Shown: piece after piece, positions 20,601 through 59,492 of the stretch
How positions within the stretch are numbered: position 1 is the first letter of the stretch
Layout: the number at the start of each line of letters is the position of its first letter
Assembly: GCA_015345905.1 (NCBI GenBank)
Contig: JADDTR010000010.1
Coordinates: forward strand, 788,477-852,476
Origin: Aotearoamyces nothofagi
Lineage: Eukaryota; Ascomycota; Leotiomycetes; Leotiales; Tympanidaceae
Direction of reading: 5' to 3'
Length of the DNA stretch: 64,000 bases
Notes under the pieces: model-generated
The model's input: only the letters and a program-made list of their open reading frames with translations
What the model was told of the DNA's origin: nothing
Database searches by the model: none
Position numbers and translations under genes: made by a program

Positions 20601-22263
20601 ATCCCCAATAAGAGAACCTCGTGTCATCGACAATATTTATTTCTCGATCGGAGGCACCTTCCATTAGAAGTGCCCATTTAGCATGATAATAATCAAGCAA
20701 GTACACTGCAGTAAGTCCTTGTTAGCATCACATGCGTCAACTGCAGGGAGTTCTAGCTTATCTCTAAGTTCTTTCTGCACGCTAGCATATATGTATCTCT
20801 TGGCCAAACAAAATACTTCTAAATACTTCTTTGATAGCTGCGATGATGATGGTCAGACAAGTAATAGTCCAAGGAGTGTTGTGCTTGTATGTCCATTCGG
20901 CAACTACGTCTTTCTATGAGAAGGAGAAAGTGTTTTGCTTGATACATGGGCCATCATATATCATGGGAGTCAAGACAGGATCAACAGTTAGCGCTGAGTG
21001 CTTGCCAATCATTTGGGATAATCGAGGTTATAGCAAGGACTAAGAGGAATGTCGAATGAAGGGTAACTGTTTTCGTTCTTTAGTATAGATGATAATGCTG
21101 GAGATAAACAACTTACACCGTTCAAGTCTTTAAATACATTAGTGTCCAGCTATAGTCCTTTACCAACCTTGGAGTGCGAGCTGAAAATAGAACGCGAAGA
21201 AAGATATAATCATTAAACCTTTCAAGGAATGATCATTAGACAAACAGGGGTATAATTACCTTCAAAATAATGACCTCTTGCTTGAACAATGTAGCAAGTT
21301 CTCCTCCAGTGCAGGAGAGGTAGTCTGCAGCTATGTTATTGACATTCAGCGATTTACACGGTCGGGAGCTTGCCTGCAACTTATATCGCTGAGGAAGAAC
21401 GTCGGACAAGACAATCTGCAGTATCTGATGAAACGAGAATCCAATACAATGTATTCGATCTATAATCCGTCCTAGATCGATATAATAAGCCATGATTGCC
21501 TCTTGCTGTATACAAATTGTTACAAGTGCAGTTGTGCAATTAATAAGCAACCATGTTGGATGTTTAAAGTACGTCGTTTCTTGGTTTAGCTGTCATGCAA
21601 TAGATGCTCTACACAGTCTAGCGTCAAATTATTCAGCAGCAAATCGAAGTGATGCATTGCAATTTCCAGCTAAGGTAATATCTTTTAGAAATATATACTG
21701 GATATATCTAATGATTGGCTGTTAAGTTATTAACAATATCATATATATCCCTAATCAATCTTGTAATTACAACAGATATTTATTATATACAGGCTCAGAG
21801 TATATAATGATTTGAGTGGAAATCATATGACTCAGCTACTCCTATTTGAGATAGAAATATATTAAGTGTCTTGTACCTAGTATATAACTACGATTTCGAC
21901 CTTTAAATCATCGAATTTATTGGTTCGAATTGATTTGGTTAATTATTTTACACACTCTACTTATACATGTATACATGTTGGTGTTATAGAACTAATTCTT
22001 TCCATTTACAGTCTCATTAAATTCCAATAATGGCGGATGGGACTCCATTATAGTTGGATACTCTTAAAGAGTATAACACAGGCATGCAAGTAGCCTCTAA
22101 ATTTTAGATGCATCCAATGTCAATGTTAAGAAGCTTATTTGAATTTTGTATCTGAATGCCGCAAGTTGCTAGTAGTTATTTCCATTGACTAGCTTCGAAT
22201 ACAAAAGCCATCCAGAGCCATTCAAAGCCAATCAAGCCTTCTTGAATCTCATACCCGTAATCA
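17626..22263. other. Gene-poor region with hairpins
   Basis: About 4.6 kb with no supportable gene. Frames are short and read like random translation. It contains the palindrome cluster at 18690-18792, a related hairpin at 20029-20048 and an AT-rich stretch from about 21700 to the end of the WG-repeat gene. Confidence 0.4.
18690..18792. repeat. Direct repeats flanking a perfect palindrome
   Basis: Two near-identical 30-bp copies (18690-18719 and 18763-18792) share gcgaaaat, two to three variable bases and tacaggggagttt, ending in cccc. Each can form a small hairpin, aggggag/ctcccc. Between them is a perfect 22-bp palindrome at 18728-18749 (gcggactaaacg/tttagtccgc). A looser relative of the hairpin (acagggaatttctcccttgt) lies at 20029-20048. 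Confidence 0.8.
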
Positions 22264-24348
22264 CTATTCATCATCACTGATGTTCATTACCTCACCGCCC
22301 TCCAAATCAATATCCATGTCCGAGTTGGCCTCCCCACTGTCAGAATTACCCTTAGAGCCCCACGCCTTCTCAAGTCTGTTGAAGGGGAGAGGAGCTGCAT
22401 TGGAACCCTGAGGCGTCTGCTTGTAGATAGCCCCCTCTCGATGTGGAGCGTCACTGAAAGATTCGCGACTACTGTAGTTCATCTCTTCGCCAATATCGTC
22501 TCCAGTTGAGGCAATCATGGCTAATCGCTTGGGGTTGATGCTAGGCTCAGACATTGTTGTGGCTAGTGTAGTGATGCTACCTCGTCGACTAAATGCAGAC
22601 GGACTTGGAGAAGTAGGATCACTAGTTAGAGCTGGTACTAGCTCGCTGCTGCGAGGGACAGAAAGGCTAGTGCCCTCAATCCCTGGAGTTCTGTCTATGG
22701 TAGACTGGAATGAATCCTGATGAACCGGAGTAGATGCCAAAGTTGCCGCGGCAGCCCAGCGAGTGTCAGACATGTTTTGGTCGCTGGATGACTTGGACTG
22801 TCCAATGCCCCATATGTATGAAGTCTCTGTATCCGGGAGGTGTGACCCACTGGTGATTAAACTGCCACTAGTGAGATCTGGCGAATAAATTGGCACTGGA
22901 GTAGTTACGGAAGCGTTATGCCAACCGGAGGCGGAACTTGGTGATGCAGTTTCGGTGGAAGATTTGTTTCCCAAGGTAGAAACATTATCAGTAGAAGCCG
23001 AGGTGGCATTGAGGTTCGCCCATGTGTTGGTAGAAGTGGCTGGAGCAACTATTGAGCTTGTAGAAGTACCCCACCCAGCTAGAGATTCAATAGACAGCGG
23101 AGCTCTTGCCCAGGGATCTGTAGCAGAAGACGAGAATTTGCTTAGATCAGAAGCGCCAACATTATTGTCCCTAGCTGCTGAAGTGTTACTGGAAATTGCC
23201 GCAATTGAGTTCGTCTCTGTACCAGCATCCCAAACCTTGGAGAGTGTGTTTGAAGGGGGTTCATGAGTAGCTTGTAAGGATCCACCCCAGTCACTATCAA
23301 CGGGAGCAGTAATGACCGATGAAACACCACTATCCCATGCACCCGCGGAGGTAGCTGGAAGTTTACTTAGGAATGGATCTGAAAGTGTTGTATCTATGGC
23401 GAATACGTCGACGTCAGTGGTACTGGGGACGGCAGGAATGATGGGAGTAGTCTCTGTCGAGGGACTAGCTACGCCACCCCAAGAGCTGACACTGACAGCA
23501 GGAACAGTGCTAGCTGATACATTCCCACGTCCACCCCAGAGCTCTTCCAAACCTGTGGTGTCCTTTTTTGCAGATGTAGAGCCACCCCATGTGTTGCTAG
23601 AAACAGTAGGAAGAGCTGTGACAGAATTACCGCCACCCCAAGCAGCATCATTGGCAGGGTTAGAATGGGTGATAGCAGCTACAGATGCTCCCCATACGTC
23701 GCCAGCTACATCGTTGTTACTTTCCGTGGTAGTTACTAGGAAATATTAGCACATGTGTATCGATCTTAGGGCAAGCAGAGCCATCTTACCCAAGTCTCCC
23801 CATCCAACTCCTACTCCACTGATATCCGTCTCTCCAATACCAATTTTTGCGATTCCGGTATTCATAATCCTCTCCTCTCTCTCCTTATTCTTCCGTGCCT
23901 CCTCATCTTTCCTTCCATTAGCCCACTCCTTCTCAGTGCCGTCAAATGGAGTACCTCGCTCCCAGACCCTCTTCATGCTCCTCGTAAGCCTTCCAATCTT
24001 CTGTCTCTTCATGTACTCAACGGCTGCCTTCCTCTCCCCGAGTAACTTATCAACCATAGCGGAGACCTCTTTGATCGGAATGTCGTCGTCGAAGGAGCCT
24101 TTGTGGACTGCATTGTTTAGTGCTGTTGCAACATCCATATGAGCATGACGAGTGTTACAGCCTGCATCTCGTGCAGTAGTTTTACGAATATGGCGATTTC
24201 TCTTTGCTGCTGGTAGATCTTTCTCTTGTGGGTCTTCAGGAAGGCCGCTGATATGGACATTGCGGCAAAGAAGACCCAAGAGGGTACGGTACTCGAAGTC
24301 TGTCCATTCGTGGGGGCGGCCCGACTTAGAGCTACGTTGAGGCGGCAT
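22264..24348 (-). CDS. WG/GW-repeat protein, possible Argonaute hook
   Basis: Unrecognised protein of 676 aa from exons 24348-23790 and 23735-22264 (54-nt intron, junction GWGDL-VTTTESN). The N-terminal 180 residues are charged and mostly helical-looking. A short WTDFEYRTLLGLL start resembles a SANT/Myb-like helix, and a Lys/Arg/Glu-rich segment lies near 120-165. From W183 to about 500 the chain is Ser/Thr/Ala/Asn-rich and disordered, with single tryptophans next to Gly or another small residue: VWGA, AWGGG, TWGGS, LWGGR, SWGGV, AWDSG, DWGGS, VWDAG, GWGTS, GWHNA, IWGIG. A final AWGSKG is near 645, and the end is acidic (DMDIDLEGG...NISDDE). This pattern is known from Argonaute-binding proteins (GW182, Tas3, plant NRPE1). 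Function here is inference only. The open frame from 23550 is only the internal part. Confidence 0.75.
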
Positions 24349-25396
24349 AATTGGGATGTAGTGATGGTGATTTTTGCTGCTCAGAGTTGAATATCAGAGG
24401 TACCGAGAAGTGGCAGGACTGTGTAGTTCTACACGGAGAAGTTCTGCTTATCAATTCCGTCAACGAGATCGACTTCTTTCAACGGACCGTAAAGTACTGT
24501 GGCTTGAAGTTGGCGGGATATGCCTTTGTAGCCTACGGTAGACTGTTTGAAAGAGTGTGAGGTGTTGAATAACGGAGTAGACGCGTTATATCTGTGATGC
24601 ACTCCGACCAAAACACCCATCAGTTGTGGGCATAAGAAGGCGTTTGGAGGACGAGCCTGATCTCAAGGGAGTTTGATCACTTGAGTAACGTTATAGACCT
24701 ACACCAAGGTAGACTGTGATTGATGATGTGGTGTAAATCAAGTAGTCGCGCGCTGCGCTTGAAATATAAATATAAAATTGGGACAATATTGACTACCAGT
24801 TCACTCACTATCAGTAGAATGCCACAATCTGAAAAATTTGTTAGTTGATACGTAAAATTACCTGCATAAAATGGCATACATGTCATTTGTCCAAACGAAT
24901 ATTTTGATAATTAGTATAAGTAGTTGATGCCCAAGATATAATGATGGCGGGGTGGAGTTTTCACAATCTATTCCTCATCTGCATCACATTGCAACGCATG
25001 TAGCCCGAAAGAACTAACCGCACCAGCTCTAATGTAGAACGTTGGCATATTAGGTAGATTTCATATTCCATATTTATCGCATAGCATGTCCAGAACTTAA
25101 TTGGACATAGAAAGCTTGGAATTTAAGGACTGTACGAGACTCATTTATGCTTGTATACAACGATATCCAGAAGAGCGAAATATAGCCGCGCTATACAATG
25201 CCTAATCGGACACTTCCGCAAGGTTAAGTGATCGACTAAGCTTCTATCACATGCCCACTAATGCTACATTTAAATGCAATCCTTGGATGCAGTTTATGCT
25301 TCTATATTTCATCAACACATCAATGAAGTCGGTATATCCAGGACGCCATGCAGTTACATTTCCAGCCCGCTTTTTAAGTAAATATTCAAAGTACTA
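24349..25396. other. Intergenic, PIK1 3' side
   Basis: About 1 kb between the stop of PIK1 and the start of the WG-repeat gene, both on the minus strand. It presumably holds the WG gene promoter and the PIK1 3' UTR. AT-rich from 24700 on; no coding signal. Confidence 0.4.
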
Positions 25397-28300
25397 CTAG
25401 TATATACCCTGGGTTCGATATTGGAACGTATCATAACTAGAGACAGTCAGGATATTTTGCTTTCAATAGCATTGATTAGCATGTATATTAAGACTTACAG
25501 TCGTGTGTAATAACTGCCAAGCGACTTTCCGATTAGATCTGATTCAACAAACCTCTCAGCATCATCTGCACTGAGCTGTAGTTGAAAACGCTGTCGCAAG
25601 GATATTGTTGTCTGTTGTACACCAGACGCAAAACAGGGCATCTTTGATTCGCGTCCCATTAAGCTGACTAGATCAACTATGTTGTCTGCAGATCGTCGTA
25701 AGGCTGTAAATAGTAAATTATCAGTGTCCGAAGATCAATCATTTAGGAAGGTCATACCTTGGAATCCCTGTTTACACAAGTCCTTGTAATCATCGAAAGC
25801 CGGCGAACCTACACCACCCAAGACATCAACGTAATCTTGGGTCAATTTAAAGGGTGCGGCCTCAAACCCGACTGATCCTGGCGAATTCGAAAGCATGAAA
25901 CCGAAATCGATATGTATGATATGGCCCTCGTTGTCGATTAGGACATTGCCATTGTGTCTATCTTTGAGCTGAAAAATATAGGATATGATACTATAGGCTG
26001 CTAGAGATCGTTTGAAGGAGTCAACAGCTGCTTTGTATGAATCTGTTTCGGGAAGGCCGAAAGCTTTCACGAAGTGGTCTTTTAGAGTAGCTATTCGCCC
26101 ACGTGGATTTTCACCCGACTCAACTGTAGCCATTGTCAGACTCCGCTTTATAGAATGCAACGATACCCCATTCGTGATTGTCTCAATCAGGCCCGAGGAT
26201 TCGCCAGTGACAAGGATGCGCATGCGTTTTACCCAGACCGGGGTACCAGCATCTTTCCATATCTTGTCACAAACATGTATCAGTTGACAAGCAAATGCTT
26301 CTTGTCTGAGGTCTGCTCCTGTCTTCACAATTACACTTATGAGATCCCAATTTTTCATCCAGCCGTATGGAGAAGCTTTTCTAATTCGTTCTTTCTTGAC
26401 TGACCATGCCTCGCCAAATGTCACAGCACTCGGGTCATCCCGATCACCCTTGCTTTGAACACCGCCGGTCTTCTGGTCATTCTCCATTCGAGCAGCACCA
26501 GCACCAGAATTGAGCGCGGCGTCAAGAGCTATGTCATCGTCGATATCTTCAGGGTCGGCATTGGCAGCAGCAGTATTTGCTTTAGCCATTATAACATCAA
26601 AAGTCGGTGTTTCACCCGGCTCAAAACTCTGTTCTTCGAGGCTTTGCATGCTTGCAATAATCTTAGCGCGGATGGCGTCAACTTCGCTCTTGGGACGTTT
26701 GCCACTGGTAGAATCAAGCTGGGTAAGCATTTGGGACGCAGCTCTCATATGAGTTGCTAATGCCGAGAAATCTGGTTGATCTAGGCCAGTCTGGCGATTA
26801 TTCAGGGGTAATATCATCTTTCGAAGTGGCCCTGGACTACTAGATCTAGATGTGGGTGCCCTCGATGTACGTGGTGTTCCAAGCGATGATAGTGAAGATA
26901 ATGTTATAGCCCCACTAGACAATCTAGGTGGCTGGCCCGGTGATTTCACATTTTCTTTCGTCCAATCGCCATCACCTGTAGCCTTTAATAATGGTGAGCT
27001 TCCTAGGTCGCCTTGAGATGGCTCGAACACACTGTCTACTGGTAGCTCTGCCGCTGGAGCGCCATTATGAGCGATTCTCGGGGCCTCCGACAAGTCGAAT
27101 ATCCGTCGCCGGCTAGTACCTTGTTCAGCGAGGAGTCTAGCTAAAAGGGTTCTGTTGTCAGAAGTTTCGGGGTTGAAAGTGAAGTCATTGCACAGGACTT
27201 CAACCATGAGAAGATATGGCACTTTCTCGGCACTGTTTAATACAGTACACTCGGCGGGATTAAGACGCACAATGCGATGATGCTTGCTCTTACTCGGTAT
27301 CCCATCCACAAGATAAGCGGGGCAAATGACTGGTATGTCAACCTCGGCAGGTAAATCCTGTGCAATCAGGGCAAGTTCGGCGCGGAGCGCACTGAGTCGT
27401 GCAGCCTTGGGGACCAGCACTAGGCGATTGGAAATATCCTCAAGAGCTGTCAAAAACTGAGTCTCACATCGAAAATAGTTTTGCCTTAAAAGCCTTACTT
27501 TCTGCTCTGAGCTTAATACAGATGGAGAGATTGATCTTGGATGATGGCTATGTCTCCGGTTGTGTTCTACGTTATCAGGTCGGGAAATAAGGTTGACTGA
27601 GGCCGAAGTAAAAGGTCGTGTACCAGTTCGCGGTGTTCGTAATTCGGGAAGCGGTAGTGACGCCGAACTTATTTGAGCATCAGGTGCCGCAAAGTCCAAA
27701 TGAGATGGTCTCTTTCTCCCCATCGGTGTTCTGACACTGGAAGATGAAGACTGCGGCCTACTCAGAGAGGAGGCCCGGTAAGATCTTTGCTGAACTTCAG
27801 TTGGTTCCGGAGCACTTCCGATCCTAGTTCTATCATTTGCTTTCCTTGTTCTACCTGAGCTAGACGCTACAGTACGACTCCTTACGAGCTTTTGAGTTTG
27901 GCTCGCATCTGAGATAATATCGTTGTTCGATTGTGGTTTCCTTGCTTGGGCAATCGCGAGAGGGCCTGCCCACTGAGGAAGTAGAGGTACGGCAACACTG
28001 GCTAATACAAAGCTTGCAAGGACGGTTACAGGCACCACGTTCTCCTTAATTTTCTCTAGTCGCATTGGTTCAGAGAGTCCAAACACAATATGCTGGACCT
28101 TGTTGTATATTCGTCTACATGTTTTGAATGCTGCTAAATGGGGGTTGTTCGAAAGGTCGTGAAGGTATGTTTGAAAAAGCCAGAACGTCTAGAGCTGAAT
28201 CAGTCCGCGATTCTCGTTGGACGGGAGATAGGTTCTTACGAGTAAGGCGCCATTGACAGATTCCTCGCACAGGTCCAATATAAACTCTTCTAGGGCCATA

Positions 28301-35303: not shown

Positions 35304-36976
35304 TCAGGGCCGAGCTTGGATGGATGTTATCGCACTCACTTTCTCGATATACCGAATGCCAACAAGTATTCCATCATCATCATAAAACTCCTTCTCGTCG
35401 CCAAAGGTGTTGTCGGATTTATCGAGGCACGACAGGCACGATATTACCACGTCAGAGTATCTTTTCCCCATGGTATACGGCAAACTCTTGCGTGCCATAT
35501 CTATCAGAATTTCCTTGATCTCGTTTGCTTTTCGTCGTTGATCTCTTATCGACTGATCAACGGCAATCTTGAGGAGCGGCTGGGGTTCCGGACTTTCATT
35601 GCCTCCTTGCCACCGTAGGAAAGAATCCCACATCCCGATCTCCAAGAGACATACTCCTAAGGAGTAGATGTCATGCTGCATGACATAGTCCTCTTCTGGC
35701 CTTTCGCCTTGGCGACTAGGATGACGATATAGATCCATCTCCCACAAACCATCACTTATGCGATATGTCTTCCCTTCCGCCATGCGGAACCTTTCAAAAC
35801 CAATGAGGAATGGCCATTTGGAAGCCAAACCATTGCCATCGCCTGCCAGAACGAGAATAGTCTCCGGACGAATATTCTTGTGCACGAACTGTGCGGAATG
35901 GATGAACATTACTGATTTGGAGAGTTGGCGTGCAATATGAAGGCGTTCGTGCAAAGGATAAGGCTTCTCTGAAATTATAATTTCTCGGAGACTTTGAGGA
36001 CTGCGTAATCCTGGGGGGATGGCGAATGTGAACTGATAGGATGTAATCGGCTTAGATAGGGAAAGCGGATTGGTTGTGAACGGCTCATATACGGATCTAA
36101 TCACACCTTGGCAGTTAAGTATGCCAAATGCAAATGGATCTAGTTTGCGGAGGATTAGGGCGAAATCTCGAACATCTCTCATCGATACCTGAGATGTATT
36201 CTCTGGATCACTGACTAGAGTGTCCAATATAAAAGCGGCCGTAGGCGTGGTTTTACTAACATACGCCGAGCAAAAAGGAATTGATACCTTGTTCTTAAAC
36301 GTGTCTTCCACAAATACTGGAGCAGCATTGCTGAGAGATTCAGACGTGTTGTCGCCATTGATGGCATCTCTTAAAGATTTTAAGATTGTAATTGATTCGG
36401 TTGTTGCTCCGCTGATTTGCTCATGTTTGAGCTGATCGTCAATATAAGGACTTGGAACGCATACTAGTAGGAACCAAGAGAGATTGAAGGTTTCGTGCCA
36501 ATGGTCTAAATCTTCCATTGTTCTTCTAAGGCTGTCTTTAGCCACAGCCGCATACCTAATCCGCTTAACGTCGCCTTTCTTCTTCATAAGTTGCAATATC
36601 GACGTATTCTTCACGGGCTCCCCGATTATGCTATCTATCTTATTTATAGCACTCTGCAGCTTTGAATCCAGGAGTTGAATCACACCGTGGAAATGTATTT
36701 GAAAGTCTTCGTCAATATTCTGCGAGACCTTCGTGAGACATTTGAGCTGATGCCTGATAGATATCCAGTGTGCGTCGATTCGGAGGATCAGCTCGCTCGT
36801 CTCGTTCTCGGCATCCCTAAACGATTCGTACTTCTTGACCATGATATCGCCATATCTGAAGTTATCTGTCTGTCAACGTTGTGTTTGAGTGACGCTGGAG
36901 GCAGGAGAGAGGGGACTGACTTGATACACTGTTCTACTAGACCTACAACTCCAATTACAAATGATATGCCATCCAT
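35304..36976 (-). CDS. HeLo-domain protein with pseudokinase domain
   Basis: Two exons, 36976-36921 and 36855-35304, give 535 aa. The N-terminus MDGISFVIGVVGLVEQCIKYGDIMVKKYESF, seen only after splicing, is typical of fungal HeLo (prion-inhibition/propagation) domains, a helical bundle that can permeabilise membranes. A helical middle follows. From about residue 290 the sequence is protein-kinase-like: HERLHIARQLSKSVMFIH, then HKNIRPETIL where HRDLKPENIL is expected, and IGFERF in place of DFG. Catalytic Asp, Lys, Asn and the metal-binding Asp are all changed, so it should be a pseudokinase. The ending YSDVVISCLSCLDKS...FGDEKEF is common in this fungal family. The architecture parallels mammalian MLKL. 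Role in self/non-self or stress cell death is inference. Confidence 0.86.
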
Positions 36977-53794: not shown

Positions 53795-56700
53795 TTACTT
53801 ATTTTGCTCCTTATCCTTCTTCGCAACAACCAGCCAAGCACCTGGACTAACAACCGTGCCAGGCTTACTTGCAATTGCCTCAACCTTTGCCCCCACGGTC
53901 TCCTCCGAAGCCAGAACATTAATCTCCATCTTCATCGCCTCTAGAATCGCAACTACCTGTCCCTGTTCTAGCACATTCCCCGGCTCAACCAATATCTTCC
54001 AAACATTTGCATCGATCGGACTATCTACCGTAACCCTCTCTCCACCTTCTCCACTCTCCATCATCTGCCTTAATCTCTCTGATTCTCTTTCCTTCTCTAA
54101 CTCCTGTTCCTTCATCCACTCATTATACAACTGCTTCTCAATTAACAGTTGCTCCGCCGTCCCCTTTTCTTGCTTCGATCGAAACTCGATTACTTCCGGA
54201 TCCGTCTTGGCAGTTTGGAACATGTCGTAAACTTCTTGTAGACTAAACTCTGCGGTACGAATATCAAATGTATAATTCCCCGAGCGATAATCACGCATCA
54301 AGCTATCATATTCCTCAACGCTCACTTCATGCCATTTGACAATATCGAACGGCTCAAACAACCACGGCCGTTCTGGTGTGAATGAAGGTTTCAGGCCAAA
54401 CGTGTCCCAACATTCCATAGTCCGAGCAAATAACATGTAGCCACCGGGTGCTTCAACGGGATAGATGGCGAACAAACTTCCTCCCATACCCAAAGTTCCA
54501 CCTGGTGTCGAGACGCGTGTGGGATTATATTTCTGCGCTTTGATTCCAGAATGCGGATTTAACGGGAACAGTATAGGGGTTCCAACAAGGAAACCAACTG
54601 CAACGATTAGATATGGTGATTCGAGACTGGTTTCAAAAACGGCACGACGGGAGGCAAGGCCGTTGTTATGCTGCAGGTAGGTGACATTATCAGGGAGGTA
54701 TGCGGCGGTCGGTCGAGCAGTCTCCATGTAACGAGTTATCGAAGTTGTGAGATCCGGGTGGTCAAAGACGATAGGCAGGCGGATTTCACGACAGGGGATT
54801 TTGATGTCTGTTGCTGCTGCGATGGAGTGTTCTAACTCGTCGACGGTTTGGAGCAACTTTTGTTGGCTGATGACTTTCGCGTCGAATTGGATCGTGACGG
54901 CTATGAATGGTCAAAGATGGACATCAAAAATGGATATGAAAGTTTTAGCGATACTTACAGCTAACATTAGGGTTCATGACAAGGTTTGGAATCTTCAATG
55001 CTTCGAGCCTCTGTTCCAATAAACGCACACGACTAGTGACTACAATATCAACGGTCTGCTTTCCGAGTTCCACAAGTAGGAAGCAATCGCCGCCCTACGA
55101 CATTTAGTACGCTCTGTCAAGATCTGGCGCAAGGATGTATCTTACCTGCCTGTAGATAACCTGAGGACGTTTATCACCATCTCCCGGTACCACCTTCAGG
55201 ATAGCATCCGATACCCCCTGTTCAAGTCCAGAATCTGGCAAGATAGTATCTAATTTCGGCCTAACATCTGATTTTCCACTTACTAGTGCCTTCAAAAGCC
55301 CAATAAATACTTCGACTCTTTCTGCCAGTTCCCTCGCATGCTCAAAGGTCGTGGGCCGCAACTTCAACGTCCCGCCAGGTTTTACTTGTCCCAACCTCCA
55401 CAAATCCCCAGAGATAACAGTCGTAGAGCACAGCAACCCGCCAAGATCAGGGCTATCCATTGAAAACACAACTGGAGAGTCACCGCCCCAGTTCATGCCT
55501 CCAGGAGATGGGTAGCCGTAATCAAAAACATTGGAAGGATGTGAGCCACCTTCACCACCATCTTTGCGGCTCCATCCAGGAATGGGACCGACGAGGCGGA
55601 TACCAGTACGGTTGGAGTTGTGTCCGATTTTCCAGGCGGTACTGTACAGCATATGACGGTCTGCAGCGGTCATGAAGTCGTCGGAGTCGTGTGGTCCATG
55701 CATGCAGTAGACTTCCGTGATATTGTAGTCTGGGATACAAGAGGATGGGAGAGTAATTATGTCTTTCATCTCCAAGGCCCATTGCTTAGACTCGGGATCC
55801 AATTCAATCCAGTCGCCCATTTGGAGCTGACGGCCCTTAAATTGTCAATAAGTTTTCAAAAGTGGGAAGCTGTAACTTCGAGCATACCTGTGTACCGCCA
55901 AATAACAAGCTAGGCGTTCCCGACTTGGAGCCAAGATAAAGTGGTCTGAGACTGGTGAGTAAGTGATGTTTTATTCTTGGTCGAATAACTTACATGTCTG
56001 GGAATCCTCCCTTAACTGCGAGGTATGCTCTGCAGCCACCATTCCCAGCCTTCCCAATCTTCAGCTTCTGTCCAGTGTGTATAACAAGCCTAGACCACAT
56101 CGGTTTCTCTTCTCCATCAATAGTCACTGGCATCGGTGCGCCACAGATTGAGAATATGGCAGATGTAGTAAACAAAAGCTCCGGGCCCGATATTGTCATT
56201 TCGAGCGTTTCTATTCCAGGCTCGTTGCCCACAAGAATATTTGCAACTGAGGGATACACGTTAGCTTCTGTAGACAAAATAGATAGATAAACCTACTTCT
56301 TGACGAGACATTGTCCATGGGCCCTCCCTTTGGAATCCCGTGTCCACTCGTCGCCCGAGCTGGAAAGTCTTGAACAGTAGTGAAAGCACCGGGTGACAGA
56401 ACGTCGATAGCGCAGGGTTCATATTTGAATCTAGTATCGAGAAAGTTTGTTAAAGTATCACCTTCGAGGAAAGCTACCTTCTGTCAGCATACACTTATCC
56501 GAATTCCACAAGAATGAATCTCACATTTCGAAGCTATCACATCACCCAGGAAATGTAAATTTGTAGGTGGCCCTTGAAGCACAGCTTCCGACAGAACCTC
56601 CGTCATCTTCACTGCGGCTGCTGATCTATCATTCGCATATACCATCACCTTGGCAATTAAAGGATCTTTTCAAATCGTTAGAACTCCATCAATAATTGAT

Positions 56701-58662: not shown

Positions 58663-59492
58663 CTATGCTACCTTTGGAAATCCCAGTTTCGTGTTCGCCT
58701 CATCTACCGCCTTCCTACCACTAATAGCATTTTCCAGAGCTGTAGGCATATCTGAATGCAAGCAAATACTAAACGGCTGGCCGTTAAATCCAACCCTGAG
58801 CTTCCCACCCTCGTTGTGTTCTCTCAAATCCGTGAGAGCACACTCCGTGATTCTATCGTAGACGATCTGCGGCGTGACCGTCTTACTCTTCGCAACAGCC
58901 ACCAACTTCCCCTCTGGTGTATAGTCAATATCCACATACAGCTCCTCTTGAAAAGGCAGCCCGTATTTCGCACACATCTCCTTCTGAAAATCGTTCTTGC
59001 AGGCATACACCGGGACCTTGAAGACAGCACATGCCCGCAGAACAGCCTCCATGATCACGGCGTCCCGCTGCATGTAGAAGAACAGCTCGCCGTGAGGCTT
59101 GATATGGTTCAGAGGCACGCCTTCTGCATCGAGAAAGGCCTTCAGGGCTCCCACTTGGTAGAGAATGGAGGCGTACATGTCTTCGGGATCGATTTCGATG
59201 CGTCGTCGTCCGAAGCCAAATTTATCGTCGATACCTGGATGGGCGCCTGCTTTGACGTTGTGCTGCTTGGCCAGGCGTACGACTTTAAGCATGATAGAGG
59301 GGTCGCCGGCGTGGAATCCACATGCGATGTTTGCGACATCTATATACTTCATGAGCTCCTCGTCTGGCCCCTAAAGTCGAAGATAAGTAAGCTCGACTCG
59401 ATCCTCCGCGGCTTTTCTCTCACCATTTTCCATCGCCCGTAGCCTTCTCCCATATCGCAATTGATCTCGATCTTCGTCACGAGGCCTGCCAT
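58663..59492 (-). CDS. LamB/YcsF family protein (5-oxoprolinase subunit A-like)
   Basis: Two exons, 59492-59424 and 59370-58663, give 258 aa. The first exon brings the family start KIEINCDMGEGYGRW; splicing continues GPDEELMKYIDVANIACGFHAGDP, the signature metal/substrate segment. HPGIDDKFGFGRR, the IKPHGELFFYM segment and YTPEGKLVAV also match LamB/YcsF. In bacteria PxpA with PxpB and PxpC opens 5-oxoproline using ATP; the older name is lactam utilisation protein. The fused carboxylase next door carries the KipA and KipI partners. Length is normal and no targeting signal is visible, so cytosolic. A frame of about 228 codons on the opposite strand is a shadow. Confidence 0.93.

Follow-up and report, generated by a model that had tools for sequence, protein, structure and literature searches.

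Regions carrying WG and GW pairs bind Argonaute in proteins that are otherwise unrelated, so that this kind of protein is already known (PMC2904775, in the part of the text available). The named fungal GW proteins in the accessible parts of the literature are Tas3 of fission yeast and Gwo1 and Gwc1 of Cryptococcus; Gwo1 has been described in a P-body complex with Ago1, and Gwc1 has been listed with the nuclear SCANR complex (PMC4778953, PMC6643885, PMC7763443). Among the open-access literature matches listed, with subscription journals outside the scope, there was no GW protein of a filamentous ascomycete, which is no proof of absence. In the present study, a candidate gene of this type was followed up in the window, the whole stretch of 64,000 nucleotides analysed here, which belongs to a genome of 25.5 Mb in 55 contigs. 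We give about even chances to the best reading of its product, namely a putative GW/WG Argonaute-hook adaptor that would act in RNA silencing and whose N-terminal domain is unclassified.

A search among 5.8 billion database proteins (536 candidates scored, which is no measure of the rarity of the family) recovered a single relative, P0001, a hypothetical protein of 461 aa from a metagenome-assembled genome named Claussenomyces sp. TS43310, a leotiomycete. The gene and its parts are as follows.

24348-22264, minus strand: GW/WG gene, 676 aa, two exons and one 54-base intron.
23790..24348, minus strand: exon 1, coding for the basic N-terminal domain (residues about 1-165) and for the beginning of the tail, where the first Trp-Gly is at residue 183; open frame with a GTAAG donor at its end, 46% identity to P0001.
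23736..23789, minus strand: intron of 54 bases, GTAAG...TGCTAAT...CCTAG, predicted from sequence.
22264..23735, minus strand: exon 2, coding for the remaining Trp array in an acidic tail rich in Ser, Thr and Ala, and for a C-terminus that is poor in Trp and has the last AWG at residue 645.

The GT donor, the TGCTAAT branch-like site and the AG acceptor of the intron (23789-23736) were read from the DNA. Its removal brings both open frames into phase and yields a spliced protein that aligns lengthwise with P0001. The open gene is directly observed. The two parts of the protein differ in charge: residues 1-165 have a pI of 9.65 (34 K/R and 26 D/E), while from residue 180 onwards the tail has an acidic pI of 4.29. 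From residue 171 the tail contains 89 Ser, 57 Thr, 53 Ala, 44 Gly and 34 Asp, a composition suggesting that it is disordered.

Several other minus-strand ORFs of the window were also annotated. The ORF at 25735-28086 (minus strand), upstream of the GW gene, has PI3_PI4_kinase and Pik1 Pfam matches. The ORF at 35304-36842 (minus strand, 512 aa) matches a protein kinase only below threshold (E 3.8e-6; 26.9 bits, where the cut-off is 31.7) and possibly codes for a degenerate kinase-like protein. A carboxyltransferase/biotin-domain ORF (53795-54856, minus strand) lies near a LamB/YcsF ORF (58663-59352, minus strand); genes of these two kinds occur together in bacterial oxoprolinase clusters.

The first-pass annotation had reported some 14 Trp between residues 183 and 500, and exactly 14 were counted there (183, 201, 219, 236, 253, 272, 320, 336, 355, 395, 408, 425, 458, and 495), followed by further Trp at 513 and 645. 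Most of them adjoin Gly, as had been claimed: Gly contact was found for 10 of the 14 and for 11 of all 16 tail Trp, with WG in 10 of the 16, and the eight contexts named earlier (VWG, AWG, TWG, LWG, SWG, DWG, GWG, and IWG) are all present. This pairing exceeds composition, since shuffled tails (residues 180-676) averaged 2.6 Gly-flanked Trp and 1.3 WG, and the observed 11 and 10 were reached in 0 of 20,000 shuffles. The array and its non-random pairing with Gly are direct observations, and several Gly-adjacent Trp, set among many small and polar residues, are a feature of the tails of GW/WG Argonaute-hook proteins. Within residues 180-560, Gly is found at 25 of 119 positions no more than 4 residues from Trp, compared with 7 of 247 elsewhere, whereas Pro and Thr are depleted at that distance. 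There was no enrichment of Asp/Glu at the same distance (11/119 vs 24/247), nor of Ser, Asn, or Asp beside Trp relative to the remaining tail of that region. The description of the tail as poor in other hydrophobic residues was fair, with LIVMFY at 66 of the 336 positions of residues 180-560 that are not adjacent to Trp.

The intervals between successive Trp are 18, 18, 17, 17, 19, 48, 16, 19, 40, 13, 17, 33, 37, 18, and 132 residues. A spacing of roughly 20 residues, as first proposed, suits 10 of these 15 intervals and fails for the other 5. The minimum of 13 was matched by random placement in 17 of 20,000 trials, which establishes a spacing floor; as a whole, the array is spaced no more evenly than random placement would give, an equal evenness being reached in 12,572 of 20,000 trials. 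A DNA-repeat origin of the array was ruled out because no tandem repeat was found in the coding sequence; the sole tandem repeat within the scanned region 22000-24500 lies at 22204-22235, beyond the coding sequence.

The genome was scanned for similar arrays with a DNA pattern of three TGGGG separated by gaps of 40-61 bases, a pattern that arrays of GW alone escape. There were 90 matches (35 forward and 55 reverse), compared with 30 and 28 for the reversed-pattern control; 63 of the 90 were examined, the remaining 27 being runs of G. Frames of at least 60 aa with three WG spaced 14-23 residues apart were found in the GW gene (a 493-aa frame with 9 WG) and in three other places, with frames of 215, 120, and 63 aa that have 3 WG each and were possibly cut by the short stretches taken. 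Of these frames from the 63 of 90 matches, only that of the GW gene has more than 3 WG. With P0001 as query, no paralogue was found in the own genome up to E 1. Five places on contigs C12, C19, C25, C26, and C31 consist of arrays of T plus a long G run, with a step of about 31 bases (61 in C12).

As a possible partner, Argonaute is available in this fungus. Piwi matches above the curated cut-off were located on C16 (QDE-2-like) and C5, on C8 in three pieces, and on C6 in two pieces that are weaker. RdRP matches make up three loci, and the Dicer-dimer domain is matched twice. That RNAi genes are present is directly observed. The C16 Argonaute has Neurospora QDE-2 as its best match (393.8 bits), while the best human AGO2 chain reaches 213.5 bits; the host accordingly has an AGO-clade Argonaute at this locus in addition to two or more further Piwi-domain loci. 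A species with the gene and without any Argonaute would have spoken against the first proposal, and the host genome does encode Argonautes. Chromodomain matches, 11 among those listed, also occur in the genome and have no bearing on the hook question.

Residues P590, K660, and R688 of human AGO2 are key residues of its Trp pockets. AGO2 constructs P590G, K660S, and R688S have been described, and P590G and R688S are reported to cancel an effect of Trp on AGO2 (PMC11336974, in the part available). In an alignment counted by hand, the C16 Argonaute has Lys, Phe, and Arg at the positions of P590, K660, and R688, respectively, and QDE-2 has Lys, Leu, and Arg by the same hand count. Read by eye, the C5 Argonaute has Arg at the R688 counterpart, and the C8 Argonaute has Lys at the likely counterpart (via chain 5the_A). 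The binding sites of fungal AGO-clade Argonautes are called "remarkably variable" in the accessible portion of a published survey (PMC12477606). Taken as evidence for hook binding, this comparison of pocket residues is mixed.

The replacement of two of the three key residues in the C16 Argonaute, along with the reported variability of fungal pockets (PMC12477606, in part), also speaks for the alternative that survives best, a GW182-like sticker array whose partner would be another mRNA-decay protein with a Trp pocket, such as the NOT9 module of CCR4-NOT or PAN3, instead of Argonaute. Pockets of that kind could also accommodate Trp spaced in this manner. GW182 itself binds NOT9 and PAN3 via Trp. 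We nevertheless consider this alternative unlikely, as the WG/GW carriers named in the available part of PMC2904775 are Argonaute binders, and the protein has a basic N-terminal domain and no known decay-factor domain that could be found in Pfam or NCBIfam.

The N-terminal domain matched 0 families of Pfam and NCBIfam up to E 10, DNA-binding families included, and nothing convincing among PDB sequences. The best hit of these searches, the UPF0335 protein 6ozx (E 0.052), was judged to be a chance match and rejected as a relative. Starting from the N-terminal domain of P0001, only P0001 itself was recovered up to E 10 (826 candidates), and among the 13 stretches matched in the prokaryote genome contigs scanned there was no relative. 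A query made from the two-row full-length alignment was uninformative, as low-complexity words swamped the search and 0 of 7,991 candidates reached E 10, P0001 included. Two AlphaFold models of the domain are helical and very weak; with mean pLDDT values of 42.5 and 46.8, they cannot decide the fold. By eye, the domain may have a Myb/SANT-like look, and no sequence match to a Myb/SANT-like family was obtained (Pfam and NCBIfam, E up to 10). A search of the own genome with Myb_DNA-bind_3 found no match anywhere, controls included, and is hence uninformative. P0001 retains Cys28, His32, Cys64, and His68, with its second Cys-His pair spaced two residues further apart; these four residues could be zinc ligands, for which two sequences are too few to make a claim. 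The pI of the domain is 9.65 in the window protein and 10.21 in P0001, values that make nucleic-acid binding plausible.

A basic domain on DNA followed by an acidic, aromatic-bearing tail would also describe a transcription factor with an activation domain. The step in pI from 9.65 to 4.29, the helical prediction, very weak as it is, and the possible Myb/SANT-like look are all in keeping with this idea. However, Gly and not Asp/Glu is enriched around the Trp of the window protein, Asp/Glu is likewise not enriched around those of P0001 (8/104 vs 8/150, equalled in 949 of 3,000 permutations), and no DNA-binding family is matched even at E 10. We rate a transcription factor as less likely still than a decay partner.

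The Argonaute-hook reading was further considered in the light of the single relative. In P0001 the array consists of 13 Trp, of which 7 are flanked by Gly (reached in 90 of 20,000 shuffles), with 6 WG (15 of 20,000), so that a similar array in one relative is directly established. Its Trp are spaced 13-36 residues apart; the minimum of 13 was reached by 0 of 20,000 random placements, and its evenness beats every one of the 20,000. Over exon 1 the N-terminal domains of the two proteins are 46% identical. The alignment of the two tails scores 222, compared with a mean of 136 and a maximum of 186 for shuffled tails (0 of 300 reach it), and the overall homology of the tails is real. Identity is low, with 100 of 251 aligned residues against an average of 79 of 238 with shuffled tails. 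Eight Trp are aligned in the pairwise alignment, a number reached in 55 of 300 shuffles, and 9 in a MAFFT alignment. Conservation of Trp columns was therefore rejected as proof of hook function, the aligned count being not above the shuffle null. Because the count of aligned Trp does not exceed that of shuffles, what appears to be conserved between the two proteins is the type of tail and the spacing floor, and not provably each single Trp. On the earlier question of whether Trp-Gly pairs are kept while their flanks drift, the single relative gives a mixed answer: an array is present in it and the rest of the tail drifts, but 55 of 300 shuffles equal the 8 aligned Trp.

The low tail identity, Trp matches to P0001 no better than those of shuffled tails, and the uneven spacing of the whole window array would fit a drifting tail of low complexity that has no specific partner and in which WG pairs are incidental, but this is the least probable of the alternatives, for Gly pairing and a spacing floor of 13 go beyond chance in two proteins whose N-terminal domains are only 46% identical, and free drift should erode Trp because it has a single codon.

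The proposal of an Argonaute hook made in the first-pass annotation was thus supported in part: the Trp-Gly array of the relative and the Argonautes of the genome speak for it, but there is a single orthologue, the aligned Trp are at the null level, and two of three AGO2 pocket residues are replaced. We infer Argonaute binding, the role of the N-terminal domain, and a nuclear or P-body place of the protein as follows. The many tail Trp, most of them adjacent to Gly and at least 13 residues apart, would occupy at least one Trp pocket on the PIWI domain of the fungus's Argonautes, so that each Argonaute would take up several Trp, or each tail several Argonautes. The complex would be anchored elsewhere by the basic N-terminal domain, most simply to DNA/chromatin or RNA, or else to a partner. 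A more specific version of the hook reading, which we put forward tentatively and regard as doubtful, is that filamentous ascomycetes have an Argonaute adaptor not described before. Its unclassified basic domain (possibly zinc- or DNA-binding) would recruit QDE-2-like Argonautes via a multivalent Trp-Gly tail, either to chromatin or to nascent RNA, and the adaptor would be a counterpart of Tas3 that would engage mainly the one retained pocket near the equivalent of AGO2 R688. If Argonaute is bound, the protein would be a concrete candidate for the link between quelling-type Argonautes and their targets or effectors, and a test case for the use of GW hooks by fungal Argonautes that do not have two of the animal Trp-pocket residues.

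The window protein was compared with the known systems that resemble it most. GW182/TNRC6 of animals has folded domains (UBA and RRM), whereas no Pfam domain was found in the window protein. The two are alike in having several Trp in a region that is disordered in the one and predicted to be so in the other, and the minimum Trp spacing of 13 in both the window protein and P0001 fits the distance of at least 10 residues between paired Trp of TNRC6 (PMC9262622, in the portion available). The largest subunit of plant RNA polymerase V and KTF1/SPT5L similarly carry a WG/GW region, Argonaute-binding in their case, on an unrelated protein (PMC2904775, in part); the remainder is a polymerase subunit or SPT5-like there and an unclassified basic domain here. 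Gwo1 and Gwc1 of Cryptococcus neoformans are, like the window protein, fungal GW182-like and GW/WG proteins (PMC4778953, PMC6643885, PMC7763443, each in part); unlike it, they are basidiomycete proteins, and they are likened to it by description only, not by sequence. Tas3, a component of the RITS complex of Schizosaccharomyces pombe, is a fungal, Argonaute-interacting protein with WG/GW in an Ala/Ser/acidic/Asn-rich context (PMC2904775, in the part available), a likeness to the window protein by description only and not by homology or array length.
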